Virus record (IMG/VR): IMGVR_UViG_3300042868_003198
Location: 1 to 23,175 of that record
Reading direction: 5' to 3' (one strand)
From: a virus
Length of the DNA stretch: 23,175 nucleotides
In this document: piece after piece, positions 13,554 through 22,779 of the stretch
How the letters are laid out: the number at the start of each line of letters is the position of its first letter
Position numbering within the stretch: position 1 is the first letter of the stretch
Notes under the pieces: model-generated
The model's database searches: none
The model's input: only the letters and a program-made list of their open reading frames with translations
What the model was told of the DNA's origin: nothing
Program-made: the position numbers and the translations under genes

Positions 13554-16403
13554 ATGACACGAATACAATTAGCAACGGGCTTTCTTGAGGTTGATGTTGA
13601 CTTCCCGATAACGGTGTCATTCAATGACATTCTAAAGCGTGGGCAAAGGTCTGGAGGGTTCAGCCAATCCATCGAGGTGCAGGGCAACGCAAACAACCAA
13701 ACATTATTAGGGCTGTATTTTGATGTGGACTTAGAAAACGATACGTTTAATCGGAATATCAAAACAGAATGTAGCATCATTCAGAATGATGTTGAGGTGT
13801 TTAATGGCTTCATTCAATTGCTTGAAATTAAGAGAATAAACAAAGGGCGTTCAAACAACGAGCAAAAGATTACATACAGCGTATTTGTATTCGACGAGGT
13901 GGCGAATTTCTTTAATTCAATGGCTGACTTTGAGTTGACCGATTTGAGTTTTCCTGAATATAACCATACATTTAACCGTGCTGAGATTATATCTTCATGG
14001 CAGGATAGCCAAGAAGGGTATTGTTATCCACCATTCGCCAAGCAAGATAATGTTTATACGCTAAGAGATTTCAAGCCTGCATTGTTTGAATACGAGTATT
14101 TTAAAAAGATATTCGCAATGCATGGTTATACCTTTGAGTTCACCCAGTTCAATGATTCGACCTTACGGATGGATAGGCGGATAGTCCCCTACAATGGCAA
14201 AGGTCAAAACCCACAACTTTCAGCGGTGCTGCAGAACCAATACAAGGTTATTGGTGAGCAGGAAACATACGATGAGTTGATAGCACAGACCATGCCTTAC
14301 GGATTCCTACCAAGACCCGATGCGATTAACGCAGGGGCACTTCAGTCATACGCAGCAACCCAAGCCGAAATTGAATTGGATATACTTCAAGACACCCAAA
14401 GCCAATACAATACATCAACTTTTTTGCTTGAAAACTTAGCAGGCGCACAGCGAACATGGACGTTCCTGAGTAGGTACAATGTAACCACACGAGTAAGGGC
14501 TTACGATGACACAAATACGTTGGTTAACAACTGGCAAAACGACTTACAAGCAATCACAAACCGTGTGGATATTATTGTGTCTTTGGTTATTCAAAGCACA
14601 ACGGACAACAATAAAAGACTTATTTTAGATGTCGGCAGTCCAATTGATTCATGGGGCAATCAGTCCTTTGTTGGCGGTGCAGGCTCATGGGTTGACTTAG
14701 GGACTGCGAGTATTGCAAGCGTGGGCAACTTAGGGCTATTTGACCAAGGCGAAGAGGTGCGAATCACACCGTTGATATTTGCACAAGCCATTCAGAATGA
14801 TGGGCAAGTAGTGCCAACATCAGCCTTTGGAATAAACCCGTTTGCAACGCTTGGCGTCTACACGAATCAAGAGGGCTATCGTATTTGGGATGGCACAGAC
14901 AACCTTCGCTTAGAGTTCGATATTGAAATAAATGATTTGTCATTGGAAGCCATACCCAACATAGAAGAGTTGATAAGCGGTTCGGTTGTGGATATTTCGG
15001 CGTTTATACCTCAGAAGATTAAGCAAAAGGATTTCATTTCTACAATCATAAAGACGTATAATTTACTATTAGAGCCAGACCCAAACAATGAACAGAACAT
15101 CATAATTAGCACACGCGATGCCTATTTAGATGCAGGTGTTGAGTGGGATTGGACTCAGAAATTAGCGCAGGATATTGAAAACAATATCACGTTCCTGAGC
15201 AACGATATTAACAGAGTTCAGGTTTATACCTACAAAGAAGATAAAGACACTTTAAACACAGCCTATCAAACGCAAATCAAAGAGGTGTACGGTGAAGCGC
15301 AGTTAACCTTAGATAACCAATACAAGCGTGGCGAAGACGTGAATCAATTAATCTATTCACCAACGCCAAACATTCAAAGTGCGATAGGATTAACGCTACC
15401 ATCAATTAACGGAATAGACCCCGATATGAACGCGAGGGTGTTATTGAATAACGGATTAGTGCCATGCAACACAATGATGTTATATGATTCGTTGCTACCT
15501 GATACAACTGCCCAAAACGTAGTTGAAACGCTGCACACGTCAATGTTTGACAATGACCAAACACCGAATTTTAGTATTTGTTTTGATTCTCCTAAGTACC
15601 TATTCCATCCTACTCAGCAAGGGCAAACAACGAACTATCTTTATTTCCTGCACCATAAACGCGAGGTTACCAATCTGAATAACGGTAAAATGTTTGTAGG
15701 TTATTTCGACCTTACAGAGGTGGATTTCCAACGGGTTGCAAGGCAGTTGAATTGGAAGATATGGATTAAGGATAACGGATGGTTTTATATTAACAAAGTT
15801 GACAAATACAACGCAGGAAAGCGCACTTTGACCCGTGTTGAATTGATAACCTTAGACGATGAGAGCGACCTGAAACTACCTACCGTGATAGGCACGGGAA
15901 CGCTTCCGAATAGCACTATCGTCACGAATGATTTTTTACTGCAAGTGAATCAAAGCACGAACATAATCATGTCGCCAAACACACGAATACAAGGCGGTTA
16001 TAATTTCGTGACGATGCCAGACGTTACGATTATGGGCAACAGAAACACGGTGTTATCGCCAAACGTCCGAGTTATGGGCAACAATAACAGATGCGAGGCA
16101 GGGTCGGACGGTTCGATTGTGTTAAGTGATGATGCAGTTGTTTCACAGCGCAGCACGGTTGTAGGTAATCGTAATGTGAATCAAGATGTGATAACCTTAG
16201 ATTTAGAATCTACCCTCACGATTACTTTTGTAGCAGCGTTTGATTTTATTATTGAATCGGTTACATTTTTAACAACATCCACAACTGAAACGATAGAAGT
16301 CAACACAGTTCCTTACACATTTGGCGTGAAAATTTTAATAGGTCAAATGGTTGAGGTTACCGTATTAGCCAACACGACAATCAATTTAAACATATACCGA
16401 TGA
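13554..16403 (+). CDS. Tail-tip/fibre protein with beta-helix-like C-terminus
   Basis: A 949-residue protein beginning MTRIQLATGFLEVDVDFPIT. The first ~750 residues are beta-rich with no recognised domain. From about residue 797 to 873 there are short repeating turns (NIIMSPNTRIQGG, VTIMGNRNTVLSPNVRVMGN, SIVLSDDAVVSQ) of the parallel-beta-helix style, ending in a small strand-rich cap. This suits a tail spike or fibre that contacts the host surface. Its stop overlaps the tape-measure start as ATGA. Role as host-recognition or baseplate protein is inferred; attachment domain homology is not recognised. Confidence 0.55.
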   Translation: MTRIQLATGFLEVDVDFPITVSFNDILKRGQRSGGFSQSIEVQGNANNQTLLGLYFDVDLENDTFNRNIKTECSIIQNDVEVFNGFIQLLEIKRINKGRSNNEQKITYSVFVFDEVANFFNSMADFELTDLSFPEYNHTFNRAEIISSWQDSQEGYCYPPFAKQDNVYTLRDFKPALFEYEYFKKIFAMHGYTFEFTQFNDSTLRMDRRIVPYNGKGQNPQLSAVLQNQYKVIGEQETYDELIAQTMPYGFLPRPDAINAGALQSYAATQAEIELDILQDTQSQYNTSTFLLENLAGAQRTWTFLSRYNVTTRVRAYDDTNTLVNNWQNDLQAITNRVDIIVSLVIQSTTDNNKRLILDVGSPIDSWGNQSFVGGAGSWVDLGTASIASVGNLGLFDQGEEVRITPLIFAQAIQNDGQVVPTSAFGINPFATLGVYTNQEGYRIWDGTDNLRLEFDIEINDLSLEAIPNIEELISGSVVDISAFIPQKIKQKDFISTIIKTYNLLLEPDPNNEQNIIISTRDAYLDAGVEWDWTQKLAQDIENNITFLSNDINRVQVYTYKEDKDTLNTAYQTQIKEVYGEAQLTLDNQYKRGEDVNQLIYSPTPNIQSAIGLTLPSINGIDPDMNARVLLNNGLVPCNTMMLYDSLLPDTTAQNVVETLHTSMFDNDQTPNFSICFDSPKYLFHPTQQGQTTNYLYFLHHKREVTNLNNGKMFVGYFDLTEVDFQRVARQLNWKIWIKDNGWFYINKVDKYNAGKRTLTRVELITLDDESDLKLPTVIGTGTLPNSTIVTNDFLLQVNQSTNIIMSPNTRIQGGYNFVTMPDVTIMGNRNTVLSPNVRVMGNNNRCEAGSDGSIVLSDDAVVSQRSTVVGNRNVNQDVITLDLESTLTITFVAAFDFIIESVTFLTTSTTETIEVNTVPYTFGVKILIGQMVEVTVLANTTINLNIYR

Positions 16404-18631
16404 GCGAAACAAGAGTAATATCATACAAGATAGAAGTTGACGATGCACCCGTAAAGTCATTAAAGCAGCAACTTCGTGAGGCCACATTAGAGGCGCAACG
16501 ATTAGCCACAGCCGAGATAGTTGACGAGAAAGCACTCCAAGCCGCGATTGAAAAGACCGCTCAACTCAAAGACCAAATGATGGACGTGAACGAGCAGGTT
16601 ACTGAACTTGCAGCGGGTTCGCCATTTGAGAAAATGAAAAACAGCATCGGCGGGGTTCAAGGCGCTTTGATGAACTTGGACTTTGATAAGGCAGCAACGA
16701 GCGCAAAGGCTTTGACGAATACCATAACCAATTTAAACCCTGCTGCGATGGCTTCGCAGTTTGCGGCATTTGGTGGTGTTGTGATGCAGTTAGGTAGGGC
16801 AGTTGGTATGCTTACGGTCAAGTTTGTTCAAATGGGTATTGCATTGCTGGCGAATCCTATCTTTTTATTGGTGGCTGCGATTGTGGCTATTGTGGCAGCG
16901 GTTGTGGTATTCCTGCATAAGATAGGCGTACTACAAAAGATTTTGGACGTGTTAATGATTCCGATTAATTTGCTAATTGATGGATTCTATGCGCTCACAG
17001 ATGCCATTGGATTAACGTCAAAGGCAGCGGAAGAGGAAGCCGAAAAGATTAAAACAGCCTATGAAGATTCTGCTAAAGCAATAAACGAACGTGGTAAAAT
17101 ATTAGAGGCGCAAGTTGGGAATGAGTTGGAATTGCTCAAAGCGCGAAGCACGGGAACGGAAGAGGATTTAGAAAAAATTAGAAAAAAGGAAGAGCAACTG
17201 TTATTCGTTAAGCAAAAGGGCGCTCAGGATAGTTTGACTTTAGCCCAAAGCACGCTGAACCAAATGAAAAACAACTCCGAAATAACGGAGGAGGAATTAG
17301 AGAAACAGCGCTTATTGGTTTTAGATTTGCAGTTAGCTTATGACAAAGCAAAGACCGCATCACTGTCATATTTTGCAAAACAAATTTCTGATGCTTCAAT
17401 TGCCAAAACAAAGGCTGATGAAGATGCTTTAAAAGCCAGCAAAGAAGCCGCTGATAAAGCGTCCCAAGAAGCTGATAGAAGAGCAAAAGAGGCATCACAA
17501 AAAGCCGAACAAAGAAGAAAAGAATTGATAGCCGCTGAACAAGCGAGAATTGTATTCTTAGAAGATTTAGAAGACCAAGCTATTGTTGACGCTGATGAAC
17601 GAGAAGATGCTTTATTAGTCAGAAAAGTTGAAAGGGCTAAAAAAGAGATGGAATCTTCATTGCTTTATCAACAAGCAACTGCCGATGAAAAATTGAAAAT
17701 AGATGCTTCTTTTGATGCTCAAATATTAGAAATAGAAAACAAAAGAAAAGCGGCTGATGATTTAAAAGAAAAAGAAAAGGAGAATAAAGAACGCGCTCAC
17801 TTATCCAACATGAACGCCTTGCAACTTGAGTATAATGCTATGTTGGTTGGAGAAAATGATTTCCAAGCTAAGTTAGATTTAAAACAAGCTGAATACACTG
17901 AAGAACAAAGGTTATTAAAGGAAAAATTAGATACTGAAGCTATCACTCAAGAGGAGTACAATCTTAGAAAAAAGATGGGTGAAGAGCAGTTAGCCGCTGA
18001 TATTACAGCAATCAAAAAAGCCCAAGCAGATAAAGAAGGTGAAGATGTAAAAAAATTGGTTGATTGGGAAATTGCTCAAAAAACATACTTGAAAGATTCG
18101 GTTTTAGGAATAGCAAATGAAACGGTTGATTTGTTAAAAGCAGTTGGAGGTAAAAGCAAAGGAGTTGCATTAGCTGCATTAGGTATAGAAAAGGGAGTTG
18201 CGATTGCTAACGTGGTTATAAACACGATGAAAGAGCTGTCGGCAAACGCGGCAACATCAGCATTGAACCCAGCCAATGCAGTAACTTTTGGAGCAGCAGG
18301 GGCGGCACAACTGTTGAAGATGAACGCTGTCAGTAAAATTAGAGCGGGTTTAAGAATTGCTACAATTGCAGCAACTGGTATTTCAGGCGCAAAAAGTATT
18401 TTCGCAGGCGGCGGCGGCGACGGAGGCGGCGGAGGTGGTGGAGGAGGAACGCCACCAATTAGCGCAAGCATGGGACAAGCACAAAACACCCCGCAGATTA
18501 ATATGTTTCAAAACAACCAAAATAACCAACCAATGAGCGGTGTGAATAGGGTATCCGTTGTGGATTATACCGACATACAAAACACTGGCAACCGTGTTGC
18601 TATGTTGCAAAATGCAGTATCTTTGGGCTAA
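16400..18631 (+). CDS. Tape measure protein
   Basis: A 743-residue protein with the tape-measure layout. A coiled-coil N-terminus (KQQLREATLEAQRLATAEIV) is followed by hydrophobic membrane segments (residues about 145-172, FLLVAAIVAIVAAVVVFL, plus a second stretch near 185-200). Long charged coiled coils fill the middle, and another hydrophobic segment and a C-terminal glycine run (about 669-685) follow. Length predicts a tail of roughly 110 nm if each residue spans 1.5 angstroms. It sets tail length and helps DNA delivery. The 17040-18200 part is more AT-rich than both ends, suggesting recombination within the gene. ATG 16400 overlaps the previous stop. Confidence 0.85.
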   Translation: MSETRVISYKIEVDDAPVKSLKQQLREATLEAQRLATAEIVDEKALQAAIEKTAQLKDQMMDVNEQVTELAAGSPFEKMKNSIGGVQGALMNLDFDKAATSAKALTNTITNLNPAAMASQFAAFGGVVMQLGRAVGMLTVKFVQMGIALLANPIFLLVAAIVAIVAAVVVFLHKIGVLQKILDVLMIPINLLIDGFYALTDAIGLTSKAAEEEAEKIKTAYEDSAKAINERGKILEAQVGNELELLKARSTGTEEDLEKIRKKEEQLLFVKQKGAQDSLTLAQSTLNQMKNNSEITEEELEKQRLLVLDLQLAYDKAKTASLSYFAKQISDASIAKTKADEDALKASKEAADKASQEADRRAKEASQKAEQRRKELIAAEQARIVFLEDLEDQAIVDADEREDALLVRKVERAKKEMESSLLYQQATADEKLKIDASFDAQILEIENKRKAADDLKEKEKENKERAHLSNMNALQLEYNAMLVGENDFQAKLDLKQAEYTEEQRLLKEKLDTEAITQEEYNLRKKMGEEQLAADITAIKKAQADKEGEDVKKLVDWEIAQKTYLKDSVLGIANETVDLLKAVGGKSKGVALAALGIEKGVAIANVVINTMKELSANAATSALNPANAVTFGAAGAAQLLKMNAVSKIRAGLRIATIAATGISGAKSIFAGGGGDGGGGGGGGGTPPISASMGQAQNTPQINMFQNNQNNQPMSGVNRVSVVDYTDIQNTGNRVAMLQNAVSLG

Positions 18632-19886: not shown

Positions 19887-21746
19887 GTGGAGCAGATTGC
19901 AGAATATTACGTTACCCTAAAACCAACGCACGACAAAGGCAGAAACGCTGATGGAATGCACCATATTGCGTTTGTAGAAGACCCTGCAATTGAAGAGATA
20001 GGCATCTACCTAAATGCTCATGATTCGCGAATTGTAGCAGATGAGCAAATCAAATCAAAGATTTTAGAATACTTAAAATCATGCGGTCAAGAAGTGCCAT
20101 CACATTGGCGCGAAGTTACCGACGAAGAGTATTTGGCAGCGCGTGAAGTTGAGTTGACCACCGACCCTACAAGCCGCGAATCTTATAATGATTTATCAGA
20201 CCCGAAAGGTGGCGGTCAGTGGCTTGTTAGATACAAATATTTTGGACCGCGTGACGATAGAAATAGAACCTTTTGCGCTGAGGTGTTATCCTTAAGCAGA
20301 ATCTACACTGAAGAAGAAATACAAAACGGTTTATCCAATCCTGAGTTTGGCAACTACTCAATATTTGATTACAAAGGTTCGTATGGATGCCGACACGTAT
20401 GGAAGCGCCAAATCTATTATGAAGACTACGAAGATGATGAAGTGCGCAAGGTGGGCTTCGTGCCGCGCGTTGTTTCACGTTTAGATGACACCGATGCAAC
20501 AACATTAAATGCGTATTTGTCTAAAGACGAGAAGATGCAGGTAGTTGCTCCGTTGCTTATTCCTGAAAAGAAAGTATTTCGCAATGATGAACTTGGAAGG
20601 TACTACATGATATTTTCTAAAGAAACGATAACGGAACTTCGCGAAATAGCCCATCAAAAAGGTATCTTAATGAGTAAAAACTTGTTCAAAGATACCCACG
20701 ATGGAGGCATAGCACCGAGCTACATTTTGGACGAGTGGCAAATCGAAGACGAAAACGACAAGGCGTATACTGACTATGGTTTCAACATACAAAGATGCCC
20801 CGTGGGAACTTGGATGGTGATGAGCCAAATCACAGACAAAGAATACTGGAAAAAAGAAATTAAGCTAAATAAGAAACACGCGTATTCAATAGAGGCACTT
20901 ATTAATTTAACAATTATAAAAATGTCAGCTATTCAAGAATTTGGTGACGTTGTGGTTTTTAATAAAAAAGGTGAACTTCTTATTTTGCAGAGGCATGAAA
21001 ATGACGATTACGAACCCAATAAAATTTGTTTTGCGGGCGGTAAAATTGAAAAAGGGGAAGATATAAAAGTAGGCGCATTACGTGAACTTAGAGAAGAAAC
21101 GGGTATAAATGAAACAGATGCAAGATTTATTCAAACGATTGAAAATTCAAACGGTAGTAAATCGCATTATTTTGCTGTAACAACAAACCAACAATTCACT
21201 CCAAGCGATGAGCATAAAGCGATGAGTTGGGTGAAAAACTTAGATAGCATTCCAAAGGAAATGTTTATCGAAGGCGATAAAGAAAGGTTAGTAAATATAA
21301 TTAAATTAGTACAAATGGCAGAAACACAAAAAGTTGTTTTACCTGATGGCGAGCACTTAATCAACGGAACTATCTATGTAGTTCAAGGTGGTGAAGTTGT
21401 ATCGACTAAAGAGGTAACAGAGCAACAAGAAGAAGTTATTGAAGAGGTTGCTGAAAACGCAGTTGAATCAATGACAGTGCACACAGAGGTGAAACCAGAA
21501 GAACAGATGTCTGTTCACACGGAAGAGCCTAAGCCCGTAACAGAAATGGAAGCGGTAATACCAACACCCGAAGCACCAGCGGAGGACGAAAGAGTGAGTA
21601 AATTAGAATCTCAGATGGGAGAAATGGTTACTGAAATAGCAACGCTTCGCGCAATGCTTGAAACACCAGCACCCGTTGAAGATGTCGAAGTACAAATGAG
21701 TGGTTCATTGTGGCGTTCAATCGCCGCGTTAAGAAGTAAAAACTAA
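19887..21746 (+). CDS. Fused prohead protease (XkdF-like), Nudix and scaffold protein
   Basis: A 619-residue multidomain protein using GTG 19887. Residues 25-46 (HIAFVEDPAIEEIGIYLNAH) match the N-terminus of XkdF-type prohead proteases. An insert (110-175) carries RNRTFCAEV and GSYGCRHVW cysteine/histidine motifs resembling minor-head (Mu F-like) proteins. The XkdF core resumes near 219-340 (KNLFKDTHDGG with His271; CPVGTWMVMSQITDKEYW; HAYSIEAL). Residues 351-465 form a complete Nudix hydrolase domain with a full Nudix box, G385-x5-E391-x7-REL-REETGI. The tail (477-619) is acidic, with a coiled coil near 568-594, as expected for a scaffold. It lies directly before the capsid gene. The Nudix segment is AT-rich. 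Catalytic activity is inferred. Confidence 0.75.
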   Translation: MEQIAEYYVTLKPTHDKGRNADGMHHIAFVEDPAIEEIGIYLNAHDSRIVADEQIKSKILEYLKSCGQEVPSHWREVTDEEYLAAREVELTTDPTSRESYNDLSDPKGGGQWLVRYKYFGPRDDRNRTFCAEVLSLSRIYTEEEIQNGLSNPEFGNYSIFDYKGSYGCRHVWKRQIYYEDYEDDEVRKVGFVPRVVSRLDDTDATTLNAYLSKDEKMQVVAPLLIPEKKVFRNDELGRYYMIFSKETITELREIAHQKGILMSKNLFKDTHDGGIAPSYILDEWQIEDENDKAYTDYGFNIQRCPVGTWMVMSQITDKEYWKKEIKLNKKHAYSIEALINLTIIKMSAIQEFGDVVVFNKKGELLILQRHENDDYEPNKICFAGGKIEKGEDIKVGALRELREETGINETDARFIQTIENSNGSKSHYFAVTTNQQFTPSDEHKAMSWVKNLDSIPKEMFIEGDKERLVNIIKLVQMAETQKVVLPDGEHLINGTIYVVQGGEVVSTKEVTEQQEEVIEEVAENAVESMTVHTEVKPEEQMSVHTEEPKPVTEMEAVIPTPEAPAEDERVSKLESQMGEMVTEIATLRAMLETPAPVEDVEVQMSGSLWRSIAALRSKN

Positions 21747-21759
21747 AAACAAATAAAAA

Positions 21760-22779
21760 ATGAAAAATAACGAAACCGTTACATTCAACTTTGGTGAGAA
21801 GTCAATCTCACTATCTGCAAGCGACTTCATGAATGGAGTATCTTCAACTGAGGGCGTTAATGCCAACTTGGCAATGACCGTTGATGCCTCAGCGAACTAC
21901 GCTACAAATGCGCAGGAGTATTTCACACGTGCCATGATTGGTGACGAGGCATCACGCACAAACTTCCGTCAATTGCTTGGCGTGAAAGACCGCGTGAAAC
22001 TTGGTGGTGTTACTACTACTGGCATAAACATCAAGCCTTATGCTGCGGTATTTAACCCTGATAACACAACTGTAGTTCAGAAAGAGTACGTGGTGCAGCC
22101 TTTGATGTGGGGTACTAAGTTCGATGTTCGTTCATTGGAGATTGCCTTCATGTCAGACCAATTAGCAAAAGGGTCAAACAACTTTAGCGACCAATTTGCA
22201 TTCATGACGTTTTTCTATTCTGAAATTGAAAGACGCATCCAAGAAGATATGGAATTGTTGACGTTTCAAGGCGTTTTAGCTACTGATGGCGTTGATGGAT
22301 TGGAAACATTGTTGGCAGTTGATGGTAACGTATTGTTTCCAACAGCGGGCAACGGTGGTGTGGCTTCGGCTGTTACGTCTGCTAACGTAATTGCGAAATT
22401 GACACAAGCAAGAAACGTAGTTCCAAAAGCAATCCGTAAGCGTTCAGATTTCGTTTATATTGTTTCGCAAAACGTGTATGATGCTTTGGCTGATATCGTA
22501 GCAGATAACAAAGCAAGTGGTTTGTATTACTTAGAGGCTGAAACAATGCGTTTCCAAGGCCGTCAAGTTTATCTTGCCGATGGTGCATCTGACAATACAA
22601 TCATTTGTACGTACTGGGAGAACTTGGTTAACGTGATGGACTTGATGTCTGATGAGGTTGGATTCAACACAGTTGACTTTATGGGGACAACTTTGGAGCG
22701 TTCAATTGGTATTCGTGCCGACTTCAAGTTTCAACCATCGTATGTTAATTCAAACGAAATCTACTTGCACACATTCTAA
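21760..22779 (+). CDS. Major capsid protein (HK97-like)
   Basis: A 339-residue protein with an acidic N-terminus and the HK97-fold style: an N-terminal arm, a hydrophobic spine-helix region (FSDQFAFMTFFYSEIERRIQ), alternating strands, and a C-terminal segment with RQVYLADGASDNTIICTYWE and a SIGIRADFKFQPSYV finish. The length is normal. It follows the protease/scaffold gene after a 13-base A-rich spacer and is followed by a terminator hairpin, so it may be transcribed at high level. No frameshift extension is seen. The family is assigned from its neighbours and overall pattern rather than a single motif. Confidence 0.75.
   Translation: MKNNETVTFNFGEKSISLSASDFMNGVSSTEGVNANLAMTVDASANYATNAQEYFTRAMIGDEASRTNFRQLLGVKDRVKLGGVTTTGINIKPYAAVFNPDNTTVVQKEYVVQPLMWGTKFDVRSLEIAFMSDQLAKGSNNFSDQFAFMTFFYSEIERRIQEDMELLTFQGVLATDGVDGLETLLAVDGNVLFPTAGNGGVASAVTSANVIAKLTQARNVVPKAIRKRSDFVYIVSQNVYDALADIVADNKASGLYYLEAETMRFQGRQVYLADGASDNTIICTYWENLVNVMDLMSDEVGFNTVDFMGTTLERSIGIRADFKFQPSYVNSNEIYLHTF

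Follow-up and report, generated by a model that had tools for sequence, protein, structure and literature searches.

We identified a complete Nudix hydrolase domain inserted in frame between the capsid-protease part and the scaffold-like tail of a single open reading frame (ORF) in the window, the 23,175-nucleotide stretch of viral DNA that we analyzed. The insertion site is exact, it is filled in some close relatives and empty in others, and a second, divergent lineage carries its own Nudix domain at the same place.

Domain order and the Nudix domain

The ORF (positions 19887..21746, + strand, as are its parts and the next gene described below) encodes a 619-aa protein arranged as an N-terminal region, an XkdF-type protease, the Nudix domain and a scaffold-like tail, and it begins with a GTG in register with the ATG starts of its relatives. 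The XkdF-type capsid maturation protease domain (PF14550; 20523..20897, amino acids 214-337) scored 20.8 bits with hmmscan, which is sub-threshold, and 25.6 bits in a second search, just above the cut-off of 24 bits. The protease part also matches phrog_24921 (E = 2e-20), which ties it to a member of that family, the gene 1 product of Nonlabens phage P12024L, for which the XkdF assignment is clear (PF14550 at 3.8e-17). Two residues of the protease core, His271 and Ser334, are invariant in 20 relatives and are likely to be catalytic; the Nudix insert starts 12 residues beyond Ser334. Amino acids 100-205 (20184-20500, YTEEEI...YKGSYGCRHVWKR), N-terminal to the protease, make up one of its best-conserved regions overall and weakly match the C-terminal end of the portal-protein family phrog_33693 (3e-4).

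The tail (143 aa; 21315..21743) consists of an LPDGEH beta hairpin, an acidic linker, a helix/coiled coil and a short C-terminal helix, with helices at residues 512-530, 567-592 and 608-617 in a low-confidence AF2 model. An XkdF core upstream of the Nudix domain and a scaffold-like tail downstream had been proposed in an earlier, sequence-only reading of this DNA, and the protease matches and the acidic coiled-coil character of the tail agree with that description. The product of the next gene (21760..22779) is likely to be the major capsid protein, judging by gene order; its sole match was phrog_11320, a family of unknown function, and tblastn found no match within the phage collection. The terminase encoded in the window is 53% identical to Flavobacterium psychrophilum phage terminases, which points to Flavobacteriia as the likely host group. 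Two scans of GTDB genomes recovered no relatives, and hence no host genome. Elsewhere in the window, within a tape-measure-like ORF (16400-18631), positions 17422-18470 have no DNA similarity to two close relatives (L004 and L005), in spite of about 86-94% identity on both sides; a different, helix-rich segment takes the place of part of this protein.

The Nudix domain spans amino acids 346-476, and the Pfam NUDIX model matches residues 355-450 with an E-value of 6e-16 and a score of 59 bits, well above its cut-off of 21. The Nudix box (GKIEKGEDIKVGALRELREETGI; 21039..21107, amino acids 385-407) is complete, reading G385-x5-E391-x7-R399-E400-L-x-E403-E404-x-G406-I407 and satisfying the consensus GX5EX7REUXEEXGU at every position. 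A chance match is excluded because of this E-value and because every box residue is retained in both this Nudix domain and that of a divergent relative, L059, which are only 60-61% identical. The segment is AT-rich, with about 32-34% G+C against 40-47% in its surroundings, so that the place, full box and base composition described in the sequence-only reading were all recovered.

The enzyme is probably active. We observed weak similarity to MutT-like enzymes, rather than to the NudE type of published cases: NCBIfam MutT-like models scored 36-42 bits and the bacterial NudE model 25 bits, all far under their cut-offs. No substrate-specificity motif stands out. Both AF2 models are of low confidence in the Nudix part (pLDDT 41, from an alignment of three sequences), and a Foldseek search with this low-confidence model returned no match. 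The best phage match to the domain is 40% identical, and among members of phrog_1198, identity is 40% for a Nudix protein of Chryseobacterium phage MA9V-3 and 28% for one of Bacteroides phage DAC22. A pattern scan of IMG/VR and GTDB genomes found no standalone close relative that could represent a donor. Flavobacterium phage MaF61 (L027, 3095-5866) has a Nudix domain (34-35% identical) within a 924-aa protein.

Filled and empty alleles of the insertion site

Searching IMG/VR with the full 619-aa protein as query recovered seven relatives (L001-L007). Three of these (L001-L003) have the Nudix insert at the same base as the window, and the remaining four (L004-L007; 92-95% identical) lack it. 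The empty site reads IIKMQKMAE (IIKM-Q-KMAE), with a one-codon linker and no other scar; the empty DNA allele is ATAAAAATG-CAG-AAAATGGCAGAA and the filled allele is ATAAAAATG-TCAGCT...GTAC-AAATGGCAGAA. Comparing relatives with and without the insert, as the sequence-only reading had suggested, placed the inserted segment at 20925..21311, with an uncertainty of about 4 bases at the junctions. At the left junction, an ATG (20922..20924) is common to the protease frame (IIK-M) and the Nudix domain (M-SAIQEF), and the right flank begins with a second ATG (Met477; 21315..21317) that is invariant in every relative with a tail of this type. Both ATGs had been noted from the sequence as marking K-M junctions; the codons are real, but the right junction reads V-Q-M, and it is in the empty site (IIK-M-Q-K-M) that K-M occurs at both. 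We also considered whether the end repeat (IIKM on the left, IIKL on the right) is a target duplication. The right-hand copy is probably the C-terminal helix of the Nudix domain, as seen from L059, and we therefore claim no duplication.

Wider scans added about 25 further relatives, outgroups included. Relatives whose tail is of this type have IIK[ML]-x-KM, or a close variant of it, at the site and no insert, with the exception of the divergent L059 (core 64% identical to that of the window), which has its own Nudix domain with a full box at the same site. The frame stays open from protease through Nudix domain to scaffold in both carrier lineages, with a stop at neither end. No domain other than Nudix was found at the site among near relatives. 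With the insert bounded to a few bases by the two kinds of allele and the box intact in both carrier lineages, the proposal that a complete Nudix domain has been spliced into a protease-scaffold protein is upheld, and erosion of the box in relatives, which would have told against it, was not found.

Gene boundary, candidate internal start and predicted route into the head

In seven distant relatives (L067, L068, L070, L075, L077, L081 and L083), the protease ORF ends just past the equivalent of the YSIEA motif, and thus the Nudix site corresponds to a gene boundary. A membrane-type ORF of 53-58 aa comes next in these relatives, followed in most by a separate acidic scaffold-like gene. The layout is similar, but homology of the fused tail to these separate scaffold genes was unsupported by hmmsearch and hhalign. 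The 53-58 aa ORF, with its hydrophobic segment (e.g. KDSIAN...LTMALIVTGIILNVVRI), adjoins the 3' side of the protease gene in L067, L068, L069, L070, L073, L075, L077, L081 and L083, and resembles a small protein of the holin type, unusually placed.

In a set of 15 relatives without the Nudix insert, synonymous constraint is stronger across the ten codons that precede the second Met than anywhere else in the gene (z about 4). With the constraint window fixed, this stretch ranked 2 of 466 with a random-codon p of 5e-5, and subsets gave weaker values (p of 1e-4 to 0.05); these p-values serve as a guide only, since the sequences are related. The matching ten codons in the window (20892..20921) are A-rich and start-like and lie immediately upstream of the left-junction ATG. 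That ATG has the context TTAATTTAACAATTATAAAA-ATG, with A at -3 and -6 like the start sites of this phage, the scaffold Met (Met477) also lies in an A-rich context, and both codons resemble the starts of the phage's other genes. Bacteroidota genes are without Shine-Dalgarno sites and favor A at -3, -6, -12 and -13 (PMC6847099). A constraint peak just upstream of an invariant Met in an A-rich context suggests an internal scaffold start, and the simplest reading is that ATG 21315 is the proposed start of free scaffold, as in phage lambda C/Nu3, where the scaffold is made from an internal start within the protease gene (Shaw and Murialdo 1980, cited in PMC8508860). In both systems the protease and the scaffold occupy a single frame, and for the window ORF an internal start where the two meet is probable. 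The sequences of the two systems are unrelated, and only in the window ORF does an inserted domain separate protease from scaffold.

We tentatively favor, at somewhat below an even chance, a reading in which the Nudix domain is an optional in-frame cargo at an old protease/scaffold gene boundary, entering the prohead by means of the scaffold and freed by the protease. The scaffold tail would carry the Nudix domain into the prohead, where the protease would then cut it loose; the freed domain could remain in the head and enter the next host with the DNA, or exit with scaffold fragments. It would hydrolyze a nucleoside-diphosphate compound, whether inside the particle, in the producing cell or in the host infected next, and its benefit to the phage may be limited to certain hosts, for instance through countering nucleotide-based defense signals or damaged nucleotides, a benefit that would explain its patchy presence. 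Packing in the prohead and proteolytic release are plausible given the domain architecture and the published predictions for other head-Nudix fusions (PMC9503650). The separate Nudix genes close to protease and capsid genes in other Bacteroidota phages also speak for this reading; the MutT-like rather than NudE-type best matches, the short-term substitution pattern of the insert described below and the poor models of the Nudix part speak against it. An extension of this reading, which we regard as doubtful, is that insertion shifted the internal start of the scaffold from 21315 to 20922, such that every scaffold copy, and not just the small number of protease copies, would be Nudix-tagged and the prohead filled with hydrolase copies freed at maturation, with the domain circulating among related phages as swappable cargo at a fixed slot.

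The enzyme might instead act in the cytoplasm late in infection, in nucleotide clean-up or in NAD/ADP-ribose or RNA-end processing, with the boundary being merely a convenient, strongly translated place and the domain freed by internal starts or cleavage before or without packaging. This is possible, if on the improbable side. The start-like contexts, for Bacteroidota, of both ATG 20922 and ATG 21315 are consistent with it, as is the arrangement in phages MA9V-3 and DAC22, whose phrog_1198 Nudix protein, of the same family as that of the window, has a separate gene of its own, one to two genes upstream of those for the maturation protease and the major head protein, so that a Nudix enzyme need not in every case be tied covalently to the scaffold; the protease in those phages belongs to another family (phrog_1028). 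By contrast, the frame running open through protease, Nudix domain and scaffold in both carrier lineages argues against this alternative and favors a fused product.

Exchange, selection and relation to known systems

On the protease tree, L059 groups with L022 and L023, which lack the insert (support 90/88), and placing the carriers in one clade was rejected (AU test, p = 7e-8), on a tree with long branches and a mosaic L003. Presence and absence of the insert require three changes on this tree. The outgroups L061 and L066 and the more distant relatives are without the insert, and its absence from about 25 further relatives, these included, indicates that the empty site is probably the ancestral state. 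Between the window and L059, the insert (61% identity, dN 0.30, dS 1.5) has diverged about as much as the core (64% identity, dN 0.295), a pattern equally consistent with a single older gain and subsequent repeated loss through recombination with empty alleles. Both the tree and the mosaic SNP patterns disfavor a single vertical gain without exchange. Of the positions at which the L001 and L002 ORFs differ, 30 lie outside the insert and none within it (p = 9e-4), and L003 is a mosaic of long blocks common to different partners. Filled and empty alleles have evidently been exchanged among related phages, and we do not claim a direction for every event.

The excess of dS over dN in the comparison with L059, together with the kept box residues, indicates long-term purifying selection on the insert. 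Over the shorter distance between L001 and L003, the insert has 7 nonsynonymous and 3 synonymous substitutions, against 10.5 and 29.5 in the core, an excess of amino-acid changes that is compatible with relaxed constraint. These counts and the patchy presence of the domain could mean that the insert is a nearly neutral passenger entering or leaving the population, at a flexible-linker junction that tolerates foreign domains. We consider this distinctly unlikely, since neutral domains would erode, and here every box residue is kept in two lineages that are 60% identical, dN is core-like, and Nudix is the sole domain found at the site in near relatives. That the Nudix fold is a non-catalytic module tuning prohead size or assembly would suit its position in an assembly protein, immediately ahead of the scaffold part, but is very improbable because the catalytic box residues are all intact in both lineages, which is unexpected for a purely structural role. 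A fusion of separate genes during assembly or sequencing, a concern raised in the sequence-only reading for which an abrupt change in composition is the sole indication, has practically no standing, as three further contigs, each from a different metagenome and two of which have SNPs of their own, show the same junction, and L059 shows an analogous one.

The combination of domains had been called unusual, which is right in part. Nudix domains fused to MuF, portal and capsid-processing serine peptidase proteins have been surveyed, with packaging and injection predicted (PMC9503650), and separate Nudix genes lie beside the protease gene in MA9V-3 and DAC22. The surveyed fusions resemble the window ORF in that a Nudix domain is covalently attached to a protein of head assembly, the capsid-processing serine peptidase among them. 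They are described as T4 NudE-like and mostly from myoviruses, whereas the best, though weak, matches of the window domain are MutT-like; the window domain also differs in lying between protease and scaffold and in having near-identical empty alleles. Bacillus PBSX XkdF and gene 1 of P12024L (PF14550) have the protease core in common with the window ORF, in which, unlike in these relatives, the protease is fused to a scaffold-like tail and a Nudix domain. Polyvalent and MuF-fused injected effectors (PMC5512222) are likewise enzyme cargo on head proteins, whereas the window Nudix is a single small domain and is not attached to MuF. Nudix-head protein fusions were thus already known; the recurrent exact site, the presence/absence alleles, the further lineage of carriers and the connection with a likely internal start are new.

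Near-identical phages with and without the Nudix domain, joined at the same bases, constitute a natural experiment. With such filled/empty pairs one can ask directly whether fusion to an assembly protein leads to packaging and release of an enzyme and whether the enzyme is of use, points for which predictions from domain fusions have until now been the main source. The position of the insert, at an old gene boundary with a probable internal start, suggests a route by which phages may add cargo to the head without breaking assembly.
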